A DNA stretch of 64,000 nucleotides from Gluconobacter roseus NBRC 3990. GTDB taxonomy: Bacteria > Pseudomonadota > Alphaproteobacteria > Acetobacterales > Acetobacteraceae. Positions 315 through 10,013 of the stretch are shown here, piece after piece. The stretch spans positions 496,001-560,000 of the forward strand of contig NZ_BJLY01000003.1 of assembly GCF_006538885.1 (NCBI RefSeq). Direction: 5' to 3'. The notes beneath the pieces are model-generated. The model had not been told where the DNA came from. It did no database searches and saw nothing but the letters and a program-made list of their open reading frames with translations. Within the stretch, counting starts at the first letter, position 1. Every line of letters starts with the position of its first letter. The position numbers and the translations under genes are program-made.

Positions 315-3300
315 ATGTCATTATCCCGCTTCTTCATTGACCGGCCCATCTTTGCGTGGGTTATCGGTCTGATCATCATGCTTGTCGGCGCTGTTGCGAT
401 CACGCGCATGCCGATTGCGCAGTATCCGAGCATTGCGCCGCCGCAGATTGCCATTTCGGTCATGTATCCGGGCGCGTCTGCCGAGACGGTGAACAACACG
501 GTTGTACGCCCGATCCTGCAGCAGATGTATGGTCTGGATCATCTCGAATACTTGTCCGCTTCGTCTTATGCGAGCGGCCAGATGGAGATTGACCTGACGT
601 TCGAGCAGGGCACAAACCCTGACATTGCCCAGGTTCAGGTCCAGAACAAGCTGCAGCTCGCACAGCCGCGCCTGCCGACGGAAGTGACGGCCCAGGGTCT
701 GAGCATCACGAAGGCCACCAAGAACTTCATGATGGTTCTGGCCTTCATTTCCGAAGACGGTAGCATGTCCGGGCAGGACATTGCGGATTATGTAGCGTCC
801 AACATTTCCGATCCGCTGTCGCGTGTGTCGGGTGTGGGCGATCACACGCTGTTCGGCTCCGAATATGCGATGCGCGTCTGGCTGGACCCGTCAAAGCTGT
901 ACAATTTCGGCCTGACGGTCGGGGATGTGCAGGCGGCGATTTCCGCACAGAACATTCAGGTCTCGTCTGGTGAACTTGGTGGTCTGCCGGCCAAGAAAGG
1001 TATTGGTTTTGATGCCACGATCATTGGTCCGACACGTCTGAGCACGCCGGAGCAGTTCAAGGAAATTCTGCTGAAAGTGCAGCAGGATGGCAGTCAGGTA
1101 CGCCTGAAGGATGTGGCACGCGTCGAGCTTGGAGCACAGAGCTACGCACTCGGGTCTGTCTATAACAACCATCCCGCATCCGCGATGGCGCTCAAGCTGG
1201 CGCCGGGTGCGAACCAGCTCAAGACCGAAGCGGCTGTCCGTGCGCGTCTGAACGAACTGAGCCGCTATTTCCCGCAGGGTCTGAAGCTCGTCTATCCGCT
1301 GGATACCGAGCCGTTCATCACACTGTCGATCCATGAAGTGGTCGAGACGCTGATCGAGGCTATTGTCCTCGTGTTCATCGTGATGTTGATCTTCCTGCAG
1401 AACTTCCGTGCGACGCTGATCCCGACGATCGCGGTGCCGGTCGTATTGCTGGGAACATTCGGGCTGATGTCCATTTTGGGCTACAGCATTAACACCCTGA
1501 CCATGCTGGCCATGGTGCTGGCGGTTGGCCTGCTGGTCGATGACGCGATCGTGGTGGTCGAAAACGTCGAGCGTGTCATGACCGACAAGGGACTGTCTCC
1601 CAAGGAAGCGGCCCGCGTCTCCATGGACGAGATCTCGGGCGCGCTTGTCGGCATCGTGCTGGTGCTGACGGCGGTGTTCCTGCCGATGGCGGCGTTCGGC
1701 GGTTCGACGGGTGTGATTTATCGTCAGTTCTCCATCACCATCGTCGCGGCCATGTGGCTGTCGGTTCTGGTGGCGATGGTCATGACGCCGGCGCTGTGTG
1801 CCTCCATGCTCAAGCCGACCCACAAGGGCCATGAGCGTGGTCCCGCAGCCTGGTTCAACCGCACATTCGATCGCCTGACGAACGGGTATATTGGCGGCGT
1901 GAAATGGCTGATCCGCGTGCCGGTCGTCAGCATGATCGGGTTCGCCCTGCTGACCGGTCTGGTCGCGTTCCTGTTCATGCGGGTGCCGGGCGGGTTCCTG
2001 CCGGATGAGGATCAGGGGATCATCTTCGGCCAGGTCACGATGCGCAATGGGGCAACTCAGGAGCAGACGGCCGCCGTTAACCGCAAGATCACCGATTACG
2101 TTCTCAAGACCTACGGCCAGTATGTTGAATCCGTCTTCACCATGACGGGCTTCAGCTTTGCGGGTCAGGGGCAGAGTGCAGGTGCGTTCTTTATCCGCAT
2201 GAAGCCGTGGGATCAGCGGCCGGGCTCCGCGCACACGACCATGACGGTGTCGCGCGAAATCATGATGCATTTCTGGATGGACCCGGAAGCGCAGATCTTC
2301 GCCGTCAATCCGCCGGCTGTGATGGAGCTGGGCAATGCGACCGGCTTCGATCTGGAATTGGAAGACACCGGACATCTGGGTCATGACGCCCTGCTGGCCG
2401 CGCGAAACCAGATCCTGAGTGAAGCGGCCCAGAATCCGCTGCTTCAGGCGGTGCGTCCGCTGGGCATGGAAGATGCGCCACAGTTCAGTCTGGACATCAA
2501 CCGCGAGCGCGCCAACGCACTGGGTCTGACCAATGCGGACATCAACACGACGCTCGAAGGAGCTCTGGGCTCGATCTACGTCAACCAGTTCATGCGCAAT
2601 GACCGTGTCAAACAGGTCTATATCCAGGGCGAACCCTGGGCGCGTATGACACCGGAGGATCTGAACCGCTGGTATGTCCGCAATGCGATCGGGACGATGG
2701 TGCCGTTCAACGCTTTCGCCTCTGGCCACTGGGTCAACGGCCCGCAGAAGGTCGAGGACTATAACGGTCTGAACTCCTACGAAATCCAGGGACAACCGGC
2801 CGTGGGCGCAAGCTCGGGGCAGGCGATGGCCGAAATGGAGAAACTGCTGGCCAAGCTGCCGCGCGGCATCGGTTACGAATGGACGGGTCTGTCCTTCGAG
2901 CAGCTGGCTTCGGGTGGATCGACGGCACCGCTTTATGCGCTGGCTACGGTGGTCATCCTGTTCTGTCTGGCGGCGCTGTATGAAAGCTGGGCCATTCCGT
3001 TCGCGGTGCTGCTGGTGCTGCCGCTGGGTGTGCTCGGTGCCATCGTGGCGACGCTGGGCCGCGGGCTTTCCAATGATGTCTATTTCCAGGTGGGTCTGCT
3101 GACGACGGTTGGTCTGTCGGTGAAGAACGCGATCCTGATCGTGGAATTCGCCAAGGCCTTCTTTGAAAGTGGCGAAAGTCTGGAAGACTCGGTTCTGGAA
3201 GCCGGGCGCGAGCGTCTGCGTCCGATCCTCATGACCTCGATCGCCTTCGTCTGCGGTGTGTTTCCGCTGGCAATTGCGACGGGTGCGGGATCGGCGGCGC

Positions 3301-3491
3301 GAGTGGCGATCGGTACCTGCGTGGTAGGCGGCATGCTCTCCGCAACACTGCTGGCGATCTACTTCGTGCCGGTCTTCTTCGTGGTGGTGCTGCGTCTGTT
3401 CCGCGTCACGCGTGTGCGTGACCGCAAGGACCCGTACGCCCATTTGGACAACAAGGCGGCGCCTGTCGCCGAAGGGGAGCACGGCGCATGA
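315..3491 (+). CDS. RND multidrug efflux permease (AcrB/MexB, HAE1 family)
   Basis: A 1058-residue inner-membrane proton/drug antiporter, the usual length for HAE1 pumps. The N-terminus (SRFFIDRPIFAWVIGLIIML) is the classic first helix. Asp409 and Asp410 in the LLVDDAIVVVENVER segment of TM4 are the proton-relay pair, and a second helix bundle begins near residue 870. Two large periplasmic loops lie between TM1/TM2 and TM7/TM8, as expected. The pump would take substrates from the periplasm or membrane and pass them to the lipoprotein channel encoded next. Its stop overlaps the start of that gene by four bases (ATGA), indicating translational coupling. No local regulator is visible, so control probably lies upstream of the window. 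Confidence 0.96.
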   Translation: MSLSRFFIDRPIFAWVIGLIIMLVGAVAITRMPIAQYPSIAPPQIAISVMYPGASAETVNNTVVRPILQQMYGLDHLEYLSASSYASGQMEIDLTFEQGTNPDIAQVQVQNKLQLAQPRLPTEVTAQGLSITKATKNFMMVLAFISEDGSMSGQDIADYVASNISDPLSRVSGVGDHTLFGSEYAMRVWLDPSKLYNFGLTVGDVQAAISAQNIQVSSGELGGLPAKKGIGFDATIIGPTRLSTPEQFKEILLKVQQDGSQVRLKDVARVELGAQSYALGSVYNNHPASAMALKLAPGANQLKTEAAVRARLNELSRYFPQGLKLVYPLDTEPFITLSIHEVVETLIEAIVLVFIVMLIFLQNFRATLIPTIAVPVVLLGTFGLMSILGYSINTLTMLAMVLAVGLLVDDAIVVVENVERVMTDKGLSPKEAARVSMDEISGALVGIVLVLTAVFLPMAAFGGSTGVIYRQFSITIVAAMWLSVLVAMVMTPALCASMLKPTHKGHERGPAAWFNRTFDRLTNGYIGGVKWLIRVPVVSMIGFALLTGLVAFLFMRVPGGFLPDEDQGIIFGQVTMRNGATQEQTAAVNRKITDYVLKTYGQYVESVFTMTGFSFAGQGQSAGAFFIRMKPWDQRPGSAHTTMTVSREIMMHFWMDPEAQIFAVNPPAVMELGNATGFDLELEDTGHLGHDALLAARNQILSEAAQNPLLQAVRPLGMEDAPQFSLDINRERANALGLTNADINTTLEGALGSIYVNQFMRNDRVKQVYIQGEPWARMTPEDLNRWYVRNAIGTMVPFNAFASGHWVNGPQKVEDYNGLNSYEIQGQPAVGASSGQAMAEMEKLLAKLPRGIGYEWTGLSFEQLASGGSTAPLYALATVVILFCLAALYESWAIPFAVLLVLPLGVLGAIVATLGRGLSNDVYFQVGLLTTVGLSVKNAILIVEFAKAFFESGESLEDSVLEAGRERLRPILMTSIAFVCGVFPLAIATGAGSAARVAIGTCVVGGMLSATLLAIYFVPVFFVVVLRLFRVTRVRDRKDPYAHLDNKAAPVAEGEHGA

Positions 3492-4954
3492 AGGCCCGTC
3501 TCACACTGACTCTCGGCTTTCCCGGTCTGCTGCTGGTGTCGGGATGCAATCTGGCCCCGACCTACCATCAGCCGACCCAGGCCATACAGAACAGCTATCC
3601 GGCTGATACTGGATCGAAGAATGTTGCGGCGGCTGCCAAGGTTGCCAATCTGGGGTGGGAGGATTTCTATACCGATCCGCGCCTGAAGGCGCTGGTGGAG
3701 CTTGCGCTGCATAACAACCGCGATATCGCGGCGCAGGCTGCGGCCGTCACAGTCTCGCGCGGCCAGTACGAGATCCAGAACGCGTCCCTGTTCCCGATTA
3801 TTTCGACAGGTGGGCAGGGCATGTTCCTTGGCCCGTCTGACACGGCGGGTTTCTCCTTTGCGCCGGGTCTGGGCACCAATGTTTCCACGCTGCGCCTGTA
3901 TCAGACGTCCATCGGGTTCTCGTCCTATGAAGTCGATCTGTGGGGGCGCATCCGGAACCTGACGCGCCAGCAGATGGAAGCCGTGCTGAACAGTGTGGAA
4001 AATACCCGCAATGTTCTGCTCACGACCGTCTCGCAGATCGGTACAACCTACATCCAGTGGCTTGCGGATCGTGAAGAGCTTCGGGTCACGCGGGATACGC
4101 TGAAATCCGAGCGTGATACGCTGCGTCTGACACAGCTTGCGTATGACAACGGGGAAGCGGATGCCCTGACGCTGGCGCAGGTTAAGACGCAGGTCGAGCA
4201 GGCTTCGGCTTACGAGGCGCAGTATCTGCGGGCTGTGGCGGATGACGAACATGCGCTTCAGCTCCTGGTGGGGACGCCTCTGCCAGCCAACCTGCCTGAG
4301 CCAGCCCCATTTGGGGCACAGACGATGATCGGCGATCTGCCGGAGGGGCTGCCGTCAGATCTGCTGGCGCAGCGTCCGGACATCCGTGCGGCCGAGCATA
4401 CGCTCATCGGTGCGAACGCCAATGTGGGTGCCGCGCGCGCGGCGTTCTTCCCGCGTGTGACGCTGACAGCATCCGAAGGGACGAGTTCGCTGCAGTTCCG
4501 CAAGCTCTTTACGCCGGGTGCCGAAACATGGACCGTCTCGCCGTCGATCAGCCTGCCGATCTTCACTTGGGGACAGAGCGAGGGAAATCTCCGGATGGCG
4601 AAGGGGCAAAAGCTGCAATATGCCGCGCAGTACGAAAAGACGGTGCAGACGGCGTTCCGTGAAGTCTCCGATGCCCTGACGGCGCGTGAAACCTACACGA
4701 CGCAGGACAGGCATATGGCCGCACTGGTCGATCAGTCCCAGAAGGCGTTTGATCTGGCGATGATGCGCTATCGGGCTGGAATCGACAGCTATCTGACGAC
4801 CCTCACACAGCAGCGCACGCTGTTTCAGGCGCAGCAGAACGCCATCACGGTCAAGGCGGCGCGCTTCCAGAACATTGTGACATTGTATCGCGCGCTCGGA
4901 GGTGGGTGGAGCCAGAAGACGGTTTCGCCTAAGGTGCCCACACAAACGCACTGA
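3488..4954 (+). CDS. Outer-membrane efflux lipoprotein (NodT/OprM family)
   Basis: A 488-residue TolC-like channel of the NodT/OprM branch. The start gives a lipoprotein signal peptide with lipobox LVSG followed by Cys20, so the mature protein is lipid-anchored. The body has two OEP repeats: residues ~60-260 and ~275-470, each with long helices forming the periplasmic tunnel; the segment LLAQRPDIRAAE at the second repeat start is diagnostic. It overlaps the pump gene by four bases and completes the adaptor-pump-channel set. A 117-codon secreted protein follows 12 bases downstream. Function as the exit duct is secure by family; export substrate is not deducible. Confidence 0.95.
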   Translation: MKARLTLTLGFPGLLLVSGCNLAPTYHQPTQAIQNSYPADTGSKNVAAAAKVANLGWEDFYTDPRLKALVELALHNNRDIAAQAAAVTVSRGQYEIQNASLFPIISTGGQGMFLGPSDTAGFSFAPGLGTNVSTLRLYQTSIGFSSYEVDLWGRIRNLTRQQMEAVLNSVENTRNVLLTTVSQIGTTYIQWLADREELRVTRDTLKSERDTLRLTQLAYDNGEADALTLAQVKTQVEQASAYEAQYLRAVADDEHALQLLVGTPLPANLPEPAPFGAQTMIGDLPEGLPSDLLAQRPDIRAAEHTLIGANANVGAARAAFFPRVTLTASEGTSSLQFRKLFTPGAETWTVSPSISLPIFTWGQSEGNLRMAKGQKLQYAAQYEKTVQTAFREVSDALTARETYTTQDRHMAALVDQSQKAFDLAMMRYRAGIDSYLTTLTQQRTLFQAQQNAITVKAARFQNIVTLYRALGGGWSQKTVSPKVPTQTH

Positions 4955-5390: not shown

Positions 5391-5972
5391 TCAGGATGGC
5401 AGGACGGATGACGGTCTGGCTGAGGTATCCGGCTTCCAGAGGCGGTAACCATTGGTGGCCAGCAGGACAAAGCCTGCATAGAGGATCGCAGTCGGATAAA
5501 GGCTGCGGCTGATGAATAGAGCGACATAGGCACTGTCCACTACGATCCACAGAAGCCAGGTCTCGCGGTAGCGCATCGTGTCCCAGCACTGGGCAACAAT
5601 ACTGTAAGCGGTCAGGGTGGCGTCCGTGACGGGTGTGGGGTCGTTGGTGAAGCGGGCCAGAACGAAAGCCCACACCGCGCTGCCTGCTGCACCGCAAAGC
5701 ATGCCATTGACGAGCGTGCGATTGGTGGGGCGGCGGACGCGGATCCTGCCATCGTGCTTTTCCATCTGACGCCAGTGTTGCCATCCGTAGATAACATAGA
5801 GGCTGAAAGCGATCTGAAGCCCTGCATCGGCATAGAGATGCGCTTGCAGGAAGATCCAGCAATAGAGTCCGGCCGCAGCCAGCGAGACGGGCCAGCAGAT
5901 CATGCTGCGTCGCGATGTCAGCCAGACGGCGAGTGCGCTGAGGACAGCGCCCAGAATTTCGATCAGGGACAT
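5391..5972 (-). CDS. pnuC: PnuC-family vitamin transporter, probably thiamine (PnuT-like)
   Basis: A 193-residue polytopic inner-membrane protein with about seven hydrophobic segments and the family signature YGWQHWRQM (tryptophan-rich motif). PnuC proteins are facilitators that keep their cargo by coupling to a kinase inside the cell: nicotinamide riboside for PnuC, thiamine for PnuT. Here it is the last gene of a three-gene operon behind a TPP riboswitch, and its start overlaps the preceding kinase gene by ten bases. Thiamine is therefore the likely cargo, which is inference from regulation and not from binding residues. Automatic annotation would probably call it a nicotinamide mononucleotide transporter. 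Confidence 0.88.
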   Translation of the reverse strand: MSLIEILGAVLSALAVWLTSRRSMICWPVSLAAAGLYCWIFLQAHLYADAGLQIAFSLYVIYGWQHWRQMEKHDGRIRVRRPTNRTLVNGMLCGAAGSAVWAFVLARFTNDPTPVTDATLTAYSIVAQCWDTMRYRETWLLWIVVDSAYVALFISRSLYPTAILYAGFVLLATNGYRLWKPDTSARPSSVLPS

Positions 5973-7117
5973 GAAGGGGCCTGAAGGGTCCGGGTCAACC
6001 AGCGCAGGAACTGCTGCCCGGAGGGCGAGGCGAACCAGTGGGCGTGGCCCAGAAGATAGTCCGTATAGGCGGCTTTCACGCCAGCCCGGTCGTGGACCAG
6101 CGTCTCGTAATAGGCGACTTCGGAGAGGGCATATTCGACGTGAACGAGGGGCAGGAAGAGGGGCACCAGACGGCGTTCTTCGCAGGAGAGCGCATATTGC
6201 GCCAGATAGCCGGACAGGAACGCTTCGAGCCGTTCATGGATGACGGGGCAATTGTTCTGGGGTTCGAGCCATGCGATGGCGGTGCGTTCGATGGCGACCG
6301 CAAGATCATAGGCGGCGCAGGTGCGGTCCGACATGCCGAAATCAAGAATGCCGCAGACCTGCGCATCGGCTCCTGTCCCTGTCCAGAACAGGTTTGATGG
6401 ATGCCAGTCGCCATGGCCCCAGCGGGGCTGGATCGTGCCGAGATGGGGTTTCAGTCTCTCATGAAACGGCAGCAGGGCGGCGGGGATATCCTCACGCCAG
6501 GGATGACGGGGCAGGGCCTCTGTCAGCCCGGCCTGTTGCGGGATCCAGCGTTCCAGTCCGGCCATCAGGTTGGGGGATGTGATGACCTCGAACGTGGAGA
6601 GCAGGGGGCGTCGTGAAGGGCGGGCAGGGGCATTGAAATTTCTGGCCGCATCGTGAAGCCGCCCCAGATGCAGGCCGCCGGAAAAGGCCTGTTTGACGTT
6701 GTGGAATGGCTCCCAGGACTGCACGGTTTCGTACAGGTCATGGCCGGGCATGATGGAAAAAACCTCATAGGCTGACCCACCGAGATCAAGGGCGGCCTGC
6801 CCGGTTTTCGTACGCCATGTCTGGCCGACCGGAACGCCCTGTTCGGCCAGATGCGTGATGAAGTGGTGTTCTTCCCCAAGAGCTGCAGCATCGCGCAGGC
6901 AATGGTCATGACGTTTGACAAAAACCCGGCTCCCATCCGCCAGCAAGACGACGCCCGTTGAGGAAAACGGTCGCCGGCCATGCCAGACGACCTGTCGGGC
7001 CGGGGCTGGAAGCGGGAAATGGGACAGGACCTCGGAGGCTTCGGCATCCGACAGTGCCGGCCAGTCCCGTTTGTTTTCGGGACCGTTGACGCCGAACTGT
7101 CCGGATGCCTCTGCCAT
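5963..7117 (-). CDS. APH-fold phosphotransferase, candidate thiamine kinase
   Basis: A 384-residue protein of the aminoglycoside phosphotransferase/choline kinase fold. A VFVKRH segment in the N-lobe supplies the ATP-binding lysine, HGDWHPSNLFW near residue 236 is the catalytic Brenner motif (HGDxxxxN), and CGILDFGM is the metal-binding DFG-like motif. ThiK, the thiamine kinase of E. coli, belongs to this fold. The gene starts two bases after the TonB receptor stop and overlaps the PnuC-like gene by ten bases, so all three are one translational unit under the TPP riboswitch. I infer a kinase that traps imported thiamine or a precursor by phosphorylation. An antibiotic-resistance role is unlikely from context. 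Substrate remains unproven. Confidence 0.85.
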   Translation of the reverse strand: MAEASGQFGVNGPENKRDWPALSDAEASEVLSHFPLPAPARQVVWHGRRPFSSTGVVLLADGSRVFVKRHDHCLRDAAALGEEHHFITHLAEQGVPVGQTWRTKTGQAALDLGGSAYEVFSIMPGHDLYETVQSWEPFHNVKQAFSGGLHLGRLHDAARNFNAPARPSRRPLLSTFEVITSPNLMAGLERWIPQQAGLTEALPRHPWREDIPAALLPFHERLKPHLGTIQPRWGHGDWHPSNLFWTGTGADAQVCGILDFGMSDRTCAAYDLAVAIERTAIAWLEPQNNCPVIHERLEAFLSGYLAQYALSCEERRLVPLFLPLVHVEYALSEVAYYETLVHDRAGVKAAYTDYLLGHAHWFASPSGQQFLRWLTRTLQAPSCP

Positions 7118-7119
7118 GC

Positions 7120-9594
7120 TCAGAATCCCGTGGAGGCGGTGAACAGGGCCGCGAAGCCGCCACCGATATAATAGCTCGGGGCACTGCCGGCGATGGTGGT
7201 GCCATAGACGCCGGTCGTGTCCTTCGCGTTCAGGGTGGGGCTGGCCACGCCGGAAAGATAGTGCTCGTTCGTGATGTTGATGAAGTTCATCCGCAGGGTC
7301 GGCTGATGCAGATGGACGTGGTCCGAAAAGCGGTAGCCGATGGCGAGATCACCCGTCGTATGATCCGAGACGCGCTCGTCATTCATGAAGGTGGCGTACT
7401 GGTGGCCGGTGTAATGCACGGTGGCGACGCCGAAGATGTGTCCGTCATCGTAGCTCAGCCCGGCCGCGGCCTGAAGGGTGGGGCTGCGGACAGCGATCCT
7501 GCCCCGCGTGCGCAGGAGATCCCCGCCAGACATCAGGTCGTTGTCGATGGTGGCGTGCAGGTATTCACCCGACACATATGGGCTGAAATGGTGCCAGGGG
7601 CGCAGGCCGATTTCCACGTCCACGCCGCGTGACGTCTGGCCGCCGGCATTCATGGTCGTGCTGACGATGGAGCCGTTCTGCACGGCCTGCGTGGAGATCT
7701 GGCGGTTGGTAAAGTTATAGTTGAACAGCGTCAGGCTGCCGATGATCCAGCGTCCCGTCCGGCGATATCCCAGCTCTTCGGAAATGGAATATTCATTGCG
7801 GACATCCGTGGAGCCGGTTCCGTACATCTCGCCCGATGAGGGGTCATAGGTGTTGTAAAGCGCGGTCTGGTCGGGGGCGCGGAAATTGGTCGTGGCGTTG
7901 AAGAAAAGCTGGTTCTCGCCGTCAATCCGCCAGCGCACGCCCAGACGGGGCAGGGGCTCCATGCTGTTGGACGCGACATGGTACTGCGGGCCCGGCAGGC
8001 TGTTTGTGCCGTCACGGCTCATCATGACGGCCTTGAAGCCGAGATCGATGGCCAGATGGTCGTGCAGCAGGGACATGTGATCGCCGACGAACAGGGCATT
8101 GGTCTGGGAAATGGTATGGAAACTGCCGCCCAGAAGCCGCTCGCCGTTTGACAGACGGATCACATCTTTGCCGTTTTCCGCCCAGATGTCCGGCGCATAT
8201 CCGTTGGTCTGGACGGCTGTGAACGGCTGCTGCTCGTTGTCGTCGCCGTAATCGTACCAGTACCCCAGTACGAAATCGTTCCAGCCTGTCTTGTAATGCA
8301 GGGCGCTGGTAAAGCCGGAACGGTAGCTGCGCTGGGTATAATCCGCGCGGACCACGCCGACGCCGTCCTGCGCGCCGGGCAGGTTCAGTGTGTCGGACAG
8401 GGCCTGCGTGCCCTGATAAAGACCGGAGGTGGACATCGTGCTTCCACCCGGCCAGTTGCCATAGGCGAACTGGGCATAAGGCGTGACGTCCAGGGACAGG
8501 CGGTCTGTCAGCGTCAAATGGACGGGTGCTCCGCCATAAAGCGTGCGCTCTCCGTCACGCCACAGACGCCAGTAATTTGCGCCGTTATCAGGATTGCTGC
8601 TGTCATAGCGGGCCAGAAGGTTGTTCTGCCCTTTGATCCCGTCCGACTTCCATGTGTCCATGGTCGGTTCGGGATACCAGCTTGTGATGGTCGTGTTGAA
8701 AGAGCCGAGGAGACTGGCGCGGTTGCCCTGTCCCCATTCCTTGAGGAACTTGAAATCGACGTGTTGTTTCTCGTCGCGTCCGGGTCCGCGCCAGTTGTCG
8801 GTTGCGCCATGGGAATAGGATACGAAGCCACGGATGCCGGTATGGGCGATGTCACCGGTATCGAGGCGGATGAATTCGCGGTTGGTGTTGTAGGAGCCGT
8901 AAGAGACGCTGGCATCGCCACCGGCCTTTTTGGCGGGGTCGCGGAATGTCAGGTTCATCAGGCCGCCGACCGCATTCAGGACAGGACTGTCGAGATCGGC
9001 CGATCCCTGCGCCAGGGCGATTTCCTGATAGTTCTCGCTGTCCGCGAACTGGCTGGGCGTGCCGGAATAATAGGCCACGTCATTCAGCGGCATGCCTTCG
9101 AGGACATAGCCGATGGCGCTGTTGTCGAGACCGCGAACGGTGATGTTCGTATTCGGAGAAAAGCCCATCGGATCGGATGAGGCGACATTGGCGCCAGGGA
9201 GCATGGAGGCAAGCTGGAAGGCCGTTGCCATCGGCGCCTGTTTGGAAATGAAATCCTGACTGACCGTACTGACGGATTTTACGCCGTCCTGCAGATGGAT
9301 CAGTCCGCCCCCCGGCTGGTTGCCGGGTGCGCTGTCCGAGACCCGATGGACGATGATGTGCTCGGCCTTGGGAGACTGTGTAGCATGCGCCTGCGAGGCG
9401 GTCTGCTGGATGGCTGGCTTGTTTGTGGCCGGTGTGTCGGCGGCACGCGCAACCGAAAAGCACACCGTTGTGCCGATCAGGACGGGCAGAAGGCTGCGGT
9501 ACCGCGAACGGCAGACAGGAGGCGTGGGTGCCTCCCGGTGGGTAGGGCCATAGGGTCTGACAGGCGGTGTGGCCCGGTCGTGTCTGTATGCCAT
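7120..9594 (-). CDS. TonB-dependent outer-membrane receptor, probably for thiamine
   Basis: An 824-residue receptor when started at the ATG at 9594, which has a GAGGAG ribosome site nine bases upstream; a longer TTG start at 9621 lacks one. The signal peptide runs to about residue 51 (SVARAA). The plug domain follows with conserved segments ITVRGLDNSAIGYVLEGMPLND and QGSADLDSPVLNAVGG, then a 22-strand-type barrel ending in Phe as these porins do. It would take its ligand through the outer membrane using TonB energy. A TPP riboswitch lies 100-220 bases upstream on the same strand, and kinase and PnuC-like genes follow at once. Thiamine or a thiamine precursor is the best guess; an iron siderophore is less likely. 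Confidence 0.92.
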   Translation of the reverse strand: MAYRHDRATPPVRPYGPTHREAPTPPVCRSRYRSLLPVLIGTTVCFSVARAADTPATNKPAIQQTASQAHATQSPKAEHIIVHRVSDSAPGNQPGGGLIHLQDGVKSVSTVSQDFISKQAPMATAFQLASMLPGANVASSDPMGFSPNTNITVRGLDNSAIGYVLEGMPLNDVAYYSGTPSQFADSENYQEIALAQGSADLDSPVLNAVGGLMNLTFRDPAKKAGGDASVSYGSYNTNREFIRLDTGDIAHTGIRGFVSYSHGATDNWRGPGRDEKQHVDFKFLKEWGQGNRASLLGSFNTTITSWYPEPTMDTWKSDGIKGQNNLLARYDSSNPDNGANYWRLWRDGERTLYGGAPVHLTLTDRLSLDVTPYAQFAYGNWPGGSTMSTSGLYQGTQALSDTLNLPGAQDGVGVVRADYTQRSYRSGFTSALHYKTGWNDFVLGYWYDYGDDNEQQPFTAVQTNGYAPDIWAENGKDVIRLSNGERLLGGSFHTISQTNALFVGDHMSLLHDHLAIDLGFKAVMMSRDGTNSLPGPQYHVASNSMEPLPRLGVRWRIDGENQLFFNATTNFRAPDQTALYNTYDPSSGEMYGTGSTDVRNEYSISEELGYRRTGRWIIGSLTLFNYNFTNRQISTQAVQNGSIVSTTMNAGGQTSRGVDVEIGLRPWHHFSPYVSGEYLHATIDNDLMSGGDLLRTRGRIAVRSPTLQAAAGLSYDDGHIFGVATVHYTGHQYATFMNDERVSDHTTGDLAIGYRFSDHVHLHQPTLRMNFINITNEHYLSGVASPTLNAKDTTGVYGTTIAGSAPSYYIGGGFAALFTASTGF

Positions 9595-9695
9595 GATGAG
9601 AGACTCCTCGCCTGCAAGCAATGAGATCTCAGCTCTGACAGGAAAGGTTCAAGCTGCTGGCTGCATTGTGTACGAATTTTCGCTAGGCAGACAGC

Positions 9696-9815
9696 GACCA
9701 CCATCCCTCCGCCAGTATGAACTGGATCAGGTTCGATGGGTCACTGCGCCACATGACTTTTGACGGTCATGCCAGCAGAATCTCAGCCCCATGCCAGGGC
9801 TCCCCACGGTGAAGC
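9696..9815 (-). promoter_or_regulatory. TPP riboswitch (THI element)
   Basis: Read on the minus strand, the thi-box parts occur in order: GGGGAGCCC, then GGCTGAGA (pyrimidine pocket, P2/J), a P3 arm with stem CATGAC/GTCATG (9752-9757 and 9766-9771), then ACCC, GAACCTGATC and the closing GGAGGGA. A P1 helix CACC/GGTG (9808-9811 with 9699-9702) closes the element. This is a canonical thiamine pyrophosphate aptamer. No T-run terminator follows before the receptor gene about 100 bases downstream, so control is more likely at translation initiation. Binding of TPP should lower expression of the receptor-kinase-transporter operon. Confidence 0.93.
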
Positions 9816-10013
9816 GCCAGAGATCCTCCGTGTAAGAGAAATTGTCAACATGATGGAGCATTCCCAGACAATGCGGCGCAACATGGCTACGAATGTGTTG
9901 CAAACAATTTCGAGAGGAATGTTCATTTTTTATTAATAACGACATGTATAGTTTTGCAGGCACTCACGCCACTCTCTGAACAGAGCGTGAGACCAGAGGT
10001 CAAAAAGGCTCTC

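Follow-up and report, generated by a model that had tools for sequence, protein, structure and literature searches.

The closest described relative of the locus reported here is the OMthi-pnuT-tnr3 system of Bacteroides, which, in the available portion of its description (PMC5613172), likewise brings together a TPP riboswitch, a TonB receptor, PnuT, and a kinase; these form one operon in most of the genomes studied there, deletion data support thiamine transport, and the Tnr3 kinase is termed a thiamine pyrophosphorylase. ThiK, ThiM, and ThiN are listed as vitamin B1 salvage enzymes in the accessible part of PMC6593275, and an extract of PMC7749635 notes an occasional association of PnuT genes with TPP riboswitches.

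The riboswitch and the three genes

The window, the whole 64-kb stretch of Gluconobacter roseus DNA analyzed here, contains an operon that very probably provides TPP-controlled thiamine salvage, in which uptake is coupled to trapping by a thiamine kinase of a family other than ThiK. It codes for an 824-aa TonB-dependent outer-membrane receptor (TBDR; 7120 to 9594, minus strand; PF00593, 89.8 bits, and PF07715, 36 bits), a 384-aa kinase of the APH fold that is the proposed thiamine kinase (5963 to 7117, minus strand; PF01636, 83.6 bits, cutoff 23.2), and a 193-aa inner-membrane carrier of the PnuC family that is the proposed PnuT (5391 to 5972, minus strand; PF04973 [NMN_transporter], 171.9 bits, cutoff 27.3). 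The gap of 2 bases between TBDR and kinase and the 10-base overlap of kinase and carrier, given for this minus-strand trio in the initial annotation, are confirmed by the ORF coordinates. The TBDR is assigned a start at the ATG at 9594; the mechanical ORF begins with a TTG at 9621, which is the less likely start because GGCGAGGAG directly precedes the ATG.

Upstream of the receptor is a TPP riboswitch aptamer (9687 to 9816, minus strand), a class assignment made by the curated Rfam covariance model RF00059, which scores 70.2 bits (gathering score, 54.3; E, 9.2e-12) and matches at model positions 1 to 105 of 105. It is the sole Rfam gathering match within the window, and its ends agree to within 9 bases with the thi-box aptamer that had been read from the letters at 9696 to 9815. 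A second model, R1, trained on 20 Acetobacteraceae aptamers, gives 88.6 bits on this stretch (locus L034), which is within its training set, and R1 matches inside the Acetobacteraceae are partly circular. The leader between aptamer and start codon (9595 to 9686, minus strand) contains GGCGAGGAG and is largely kept across most of 11 aligned Gluconobacter relatives. Its purine-rich stretch can pair upstream, a possible hairpin over the ribosome site, in a single-strand fold that is no better than those of shuffled sequences (z, -0.67), and a terminator scan of the leader found no terminator-like site. Control would be of the OFF type, as expected from the aptamer class, and our guess is that it is repression at the level of translation.

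PnuT proteins pass thiamine through the inner membrane by facilitated diffusion, and ThiL needs thiamine monophosphate (TMP) as its substrate. When TPP is scarce, the leader would allow expression of all three genes; the TonB receptor would then carry thiamine across the outer membrane, the PnuC-family carrier would let it diffuse across the inner membrane, and the kinase would use ATP to convert it to TMP, which would be trapped in the cell and serve as the substrate for ThiL. Substrate and inward direction are the predicted elements of this scheme. An RND-type efflux pump and outer-membrane channel pair, recognized by eye, lies beside the operon on the opposite strand (315 to 4954). A role of the operon in defence was rejected, with PADLOC giving no match.

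The genome of this strain has a second RF00059 match (58.2 bits) ahead of a thiamine biosynthetic operon, in which NCBIfam models identify ThiC (1049.6 bits) and ThiE (335.2 bits); ThiO falls short of its cutoff (237.1 bits, cutoff 250.8), as do ThiF and ThiD, and ThiG was assigned by eye only, a profile scan of its supposed ORF being empty at 1e-10. ThiL is present (313.7 bits), and neither pyrophosphokinase nor ThiB has a match in the genome. The host is probably prototrophic and, since a de novo thiamine operon is also encoded, the salvage operon is here an addition that supplements it. Besides the ThiE of the thiC operon there is a second ThiE-like match below the cutoff (G000:C2:491542-492072; 111.7 bits), and genome G279 has a similar one. 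For G. oxydans 621H, the accessible part of PMC5756330 lists one TPP riboswitch, before thiC, suggesting that strain 621H either lacks the second element or has one that the list omits.

The kinase and the carrier

The APH catalytic motif consists of a Lys, a Glu, HxDxxxxN, and the Asp of DFG. K68, E83, H235, D237, N242, and D259 of the kinase are invariant across 60 aligned sequences, and the invariant aromatics include W135, W233, W245, W283, and W361; the catalytic-type residues and the PF01636 score together place the protein in the APH superfamily. The alignments comprise 32 of 40 kinases over 300 aa (A2), 31 of 39 carrier matches (A3), and two sets of rows chosen by hand (A4, 60 rows; A5, 23 rows). 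An AlphaFold2 model of the kinase (mean pLDDT, 92.9) ranks N-acetylhexosamine kinase, homoserine kinase, and aminopropanol kinase first in Foldseek at 14 to 17% identity. N-acetylhexosamine 1-kinase (4wh3 and 4ocu) is the best match (E, 1.9e-13), but differs in having only 16% identity and TM-scores of 0.59 and 0.62 for 4wh3. The nearest named relatives by profile are the homoserine kinase ThrB (HSK2), SrkA, and amicoumacin kinase (1zyl, 6sui, and 2ppq), which also occur among the Foldseek matches.

No named NCBIfam family is reached at its cutoff. The homoserine kinase models TIGR00938 (39.9 bits, cutoff 255.9) and PRK05231 (50.8 bits, cutoff 271) are so far from their cutoffs that this identity was rejected, a Bombella-type ThrB has 26% identity to the window kinase, and PRK11768 gives 38.6 bits (cutoff 194). 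A resistance kinase was likewise rejected, on the operon context and the riboswitch. The ThiK profile (TIGR02721 / PRK10271) is not among the NCBIfam matches of the kinase at an E of ≤0.1, whereas the control, Escherichia coli ThiK, scores 338.1 and 554.5 bits, and BLAST finds no match between the two proteins at an E of ≤10; the earlier judgment that the kinase is not close to ThiK was right, and by sequence it is a family apart. Thiamine pyrophosphokinase (TIGR01378) matches in none of the 43 Acetobacteraceae genomes that carry the kinase, and hence does not match the kinase gene either.

The carrier has the motif W139-L-L-W142-I-V-V-D146, with the Asp present in at least 90% of aligned relatives. 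E. coli PnuC belongs to the same family (26% identity) but has Asn at this position (W-x-x-W-x-x-x-N), as does the PnuC structure 4qtn, which matches the carrier at an E of 5.6e-5; Asp146 could suit positively charged thiamine. The PF04973 score puts the carrier in the PnuC/PnuT family, and it also exceeds the equivalog cutoff of TIGR01528 (PnuC, nicotinamide riboside; 82.4 bits, cutoff 42.45). The resulting name, nicotinamide riboside transporter, is likely a misnaming, as TIGR01528 probably does not separate PnuT.

Distribution, partners, and riboswitch linkage

A search of 299 Acetobacteraceae genomes (E ≤1e-15) identified the kinase in 43, at 44 loci. TBDR, kinase, and carrier are all present at 36 of these, an association that is more than chance, and the gap between kinase and carrier is 31 bases or fewer in 34 of 37 measured pairs. 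Three of the 36 full trios have broken genes, the receptor in L047 and both receptor and kinase in L076 and L077, the genomes of the latter two having ThiC. A linked TPP aptamer is found at 19 of the 44 loci (RF00059 and R1); 17 are upstream of the TBDR and above the RF00059 cutoff, and the others (L056 and L065) lie between kinase and TBDR, score below the cutoff, and have no carrier gene nearby. The other 19 of the 36 full trios have no aptamer match, although at L039 the contig starts 112 bases before the receptor, so only 112 were searched. At the 25 loci without a linked aptamer, R1 found nothing, and an Rfam search of 18 of them found two tRNAs only. Among the upstream sequences of 13 aptamer-less operons, those of L064 and L069 have a palindrome in common before the receptor, ACTATGAT...ATCATAGT, possibly a repressor site in the place of the riboswitch.

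When one genome per species was scanned, 366 stretches encoding kinase relatives were recovered, and the 80 best form the set used here; some of these are the same records as loci of the 44-locus set, and the two sets are not independent. The closest among the best 80 of 366 are the kinases of Gluconobacter aidae and G. potus (both 96%), and 45 of the 80 loci have an R1 aptamer. G. wancherniae (L128) is the only one of the 20 Gluconobacter loci in this set without an R1 aptamer. In Asaia platycodi (L187) the receptor match is split over three frames, with kinase and carrier each in one open frame. RF00059, a check independent of the R1 training, is above its cutoff beside the kinase at 10 of the 11 relative loci given to it (L178, L180, and L190 were left out), in Sphingomonas, Novosphingobium, Stenotrophomonas, Dyella, three Rhodanobacter, a Lysobacteraceae bin, an Acidobacteria bin, and an uncultured member of the Acetobacteraceae (L148). 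The one missed, L188, is labeled Acidobacteria and matches a contig (G080:C48) that genome search places in the Acetobacteraceae.

The gene partners vary. In the xanthomonads examined, the kinase is followed by the aptamer and then, after ∼2 kb, by the carrier; in Dyella (L169) a TonB receptor is encoded between aptamer and carrier. Burkholderia (L142) has the order receptor, carrier, kinase with no aptamer, and Herbaspirillum (L176) has receptor and kinase; no TPP aptamer was found at the Burkholderia, Zymomonas, Herbaspirillum, and Gram-positive kinase loci searched. The TPP riboswitch listed for Zymomonas mobilis belongs to thiC in the available extract of PMC5770649, in line with an aptamer-less kinase operon. 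At the Gram-positive loci (L164, L171, L179, and L186) the neighbors are NMT1/THI5 or ABC permease genes: Cohnella has an NMT1/THI5 gene, Paenibacillus has NMT1/THI5 genes with an ABC permease and an ATPase, and Streptomyces has an ABC permease, with an NMT1/THI5 gene in one of two. A SAM-IV riboswitch (L179:7788-7901; 92.9 bits) follows one Streptomyces kinase and precedes a solute-binding protein gene.

The TonB receptors fall into two classes with no BLAST match between them at 1e-3 (40 to 68% within groups among the matches listed). Both classes occur with TPP aptamers, and kinase and aptamer thus stay while the receptor changes. On a kinase tree (the 80 relatives minus 23 near-duplicates, plus nine other loci, the window kinase, and two outgroups), built by a quick method and with many weak forks, linkage to a TPP aptamer changes at least seven times.

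The proposed step and its relation to known systems

ThiL is above its cutoff in all 43 kinase-bearing genomes. ThiC has no match in 10 of these and is in pieces in one further, G211, in which thiC and thiE are fragmented (G211:C1:288681-290540) and the salvage operon is retained; thiamine biosynthesis is apparently under loss there. Six near-complete genomes (G136, G296, G273, G032, G243, and G070) have neither ThiC nor a credible ThiE, with no ThiE match in five and only 19.7 bits (cutoff 145.1) in G032. Profile searches found neither ThiB nor the pyrophosphokinase TIGR01378 in any of the six, all of which keep ThiL. Lacking ThiC, ThiE, pyrophosphokinase, and ThiB, these genomes could feed ThiL with phosphorylated thiamine only, which indicates conversion of thiamine to TMP as the kinase reaction, on the assumption that there is no direct TMP import and no unknown enzyme. 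The TBDR frame of G136 is in pieces, which implies that the receptor can be dispensable. No enrichment of the kinase is seen among ThiC-less genomes (ThiC is missing in 10 of 43 kinase bearers versus 79 of 256 nonbearers), and the kinase shows no complementarity with pyrophosphokinase, which is present in one of 16 ThiC-less genomes without the kinase (16 tested of 79); as most of these nonbearers lack pyrophosphokinase too, the lack of it does not set kinase bearers apart.

There is a slim chance that the substrate of the kinase is instead a precursor of thiamine, either HMP or hydroxyethylthiazole, imported by the carrier. NMT1/THI5 proteins are the ThiY part of ThiXYZ, and the relatives in Cohnella, Paenibacillus, and Streptomyces antibioticus adjoin genes of this family. 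In the accessible part of PMC6593275, ThiXYZ is assigned to the transport of HMP and ThiXYZ2 to that of B1. Without ThiE, however, no TMP is made from precursors, and the kinase is kept in the five genomes with no ThiE match and in the one with the 19.7-bit match; HMP and thiazole are disfavored because such genomes could use neither.

About equally improbable is that an unrecognized enzyme elsewhere phosphorylates thiamine and that the kinase is an accessory in the operon. The elimination covers known families alone, and G136 and G070 have three PF01636 matches each, including the extra APH proteins L094 (G136) and L089 (G070); L094 passes no NCBIfam cutoff, its ThiK match being 30.1 bits (cutoff 299.45). 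But PF01636 finds just two proteins each in G296, G273, G032, and G243, the kinase and a ThrB with 371 to 402 bits (cutoffs 255.9 and 271), and the close spacing of kinase and carrier also counts against this reading. The least credible reading, import of another vitamin or nucleoside (e.g., nicotinamide riboside) or of haem or iron with the TPP aptamer as a regulatory curiosity, could draw on the TIGR01528 score, on weak NCBIfam haem-receptor matches of the TBDR (61.2 bits, cutoff 316.85), and on the full operons without an aptamer match, but it runs against the recurrence of TPP aptamers beside the kinase in several distant groups, the Asp in place of Asn in the carrier motif, and the elimination in auxotrophs.

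Thiamine salvage by uptake and kinase trapping, the route put forward in the initial annotation, is thus supported by the TPP aptamer, the conserved trio, the distant TPP linkage, and the elimination in auxotrophs, with thiamine as the predicted substrate. Counting against it are the 19 full trios without an aptamer match, the aptamer-less loci of Burkholderia, Zymomonas, Herbaspirillum, and the Gram-positive relatives (the last near NMT1/THI5 ABC genes), the NCBIfam name of the carrier, and the missing enrichment among ThiC-less genomes. We consider it likely that the kinase represents an undescribed thiamine kinase family, related to ThiK visibly only at the superfamily level and with members in Pseudomonadota, Acidobacteriota, Bacillota, and Actinomycetota. 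Its partners would be interchangeable importers, either PnuT together with one or the other of two unrelated classes of TonB receptor or ABC systems of the NMT1/THI5 type, and it would supply the TMP-forming step that thiamine-dependent acetic acid bacteria such as Bombella otherwise lack. Thiamine salvage in such bacteria is easily missed, since NCBIfam takes the carrier for a nicotinamide riboside transporter and leaves the kinase unnamed, and genomes with ThiL alone appear incapable of vitamin B1 use. If true, the addition of another thiamine kinase family of the APH fold would account for the use of external thiamine by acetic acid bacteria such as Bombella, and the kinase is a directly testable enzyme. 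It is not named in the available portions of PMC5613172, PMC7749635, and PMC6593275, and no recognized description of it came up in the literature searched, although an earlier prediction may exist.

The likeness to E. coli ThiK (YcfN) lies in the proposed reaction and the APH-type superfamily. ThiK is shorter (274 aa versus 384 aa), lacks a close sequence relative of solved structure (best E, 0.016), and is encoded between lpoB and nagZ, unlike the window kinase in its operon with TBDR and carrier. The layout of that operon is already known from Bacteroides, with riboswitch, TonB receptor, and PnuC-family carrier all shared. The kinase is the new part: Tnr3 is presumably a pyrophosphokinase, a type to which the APH-fold kinase of the window does not belong.
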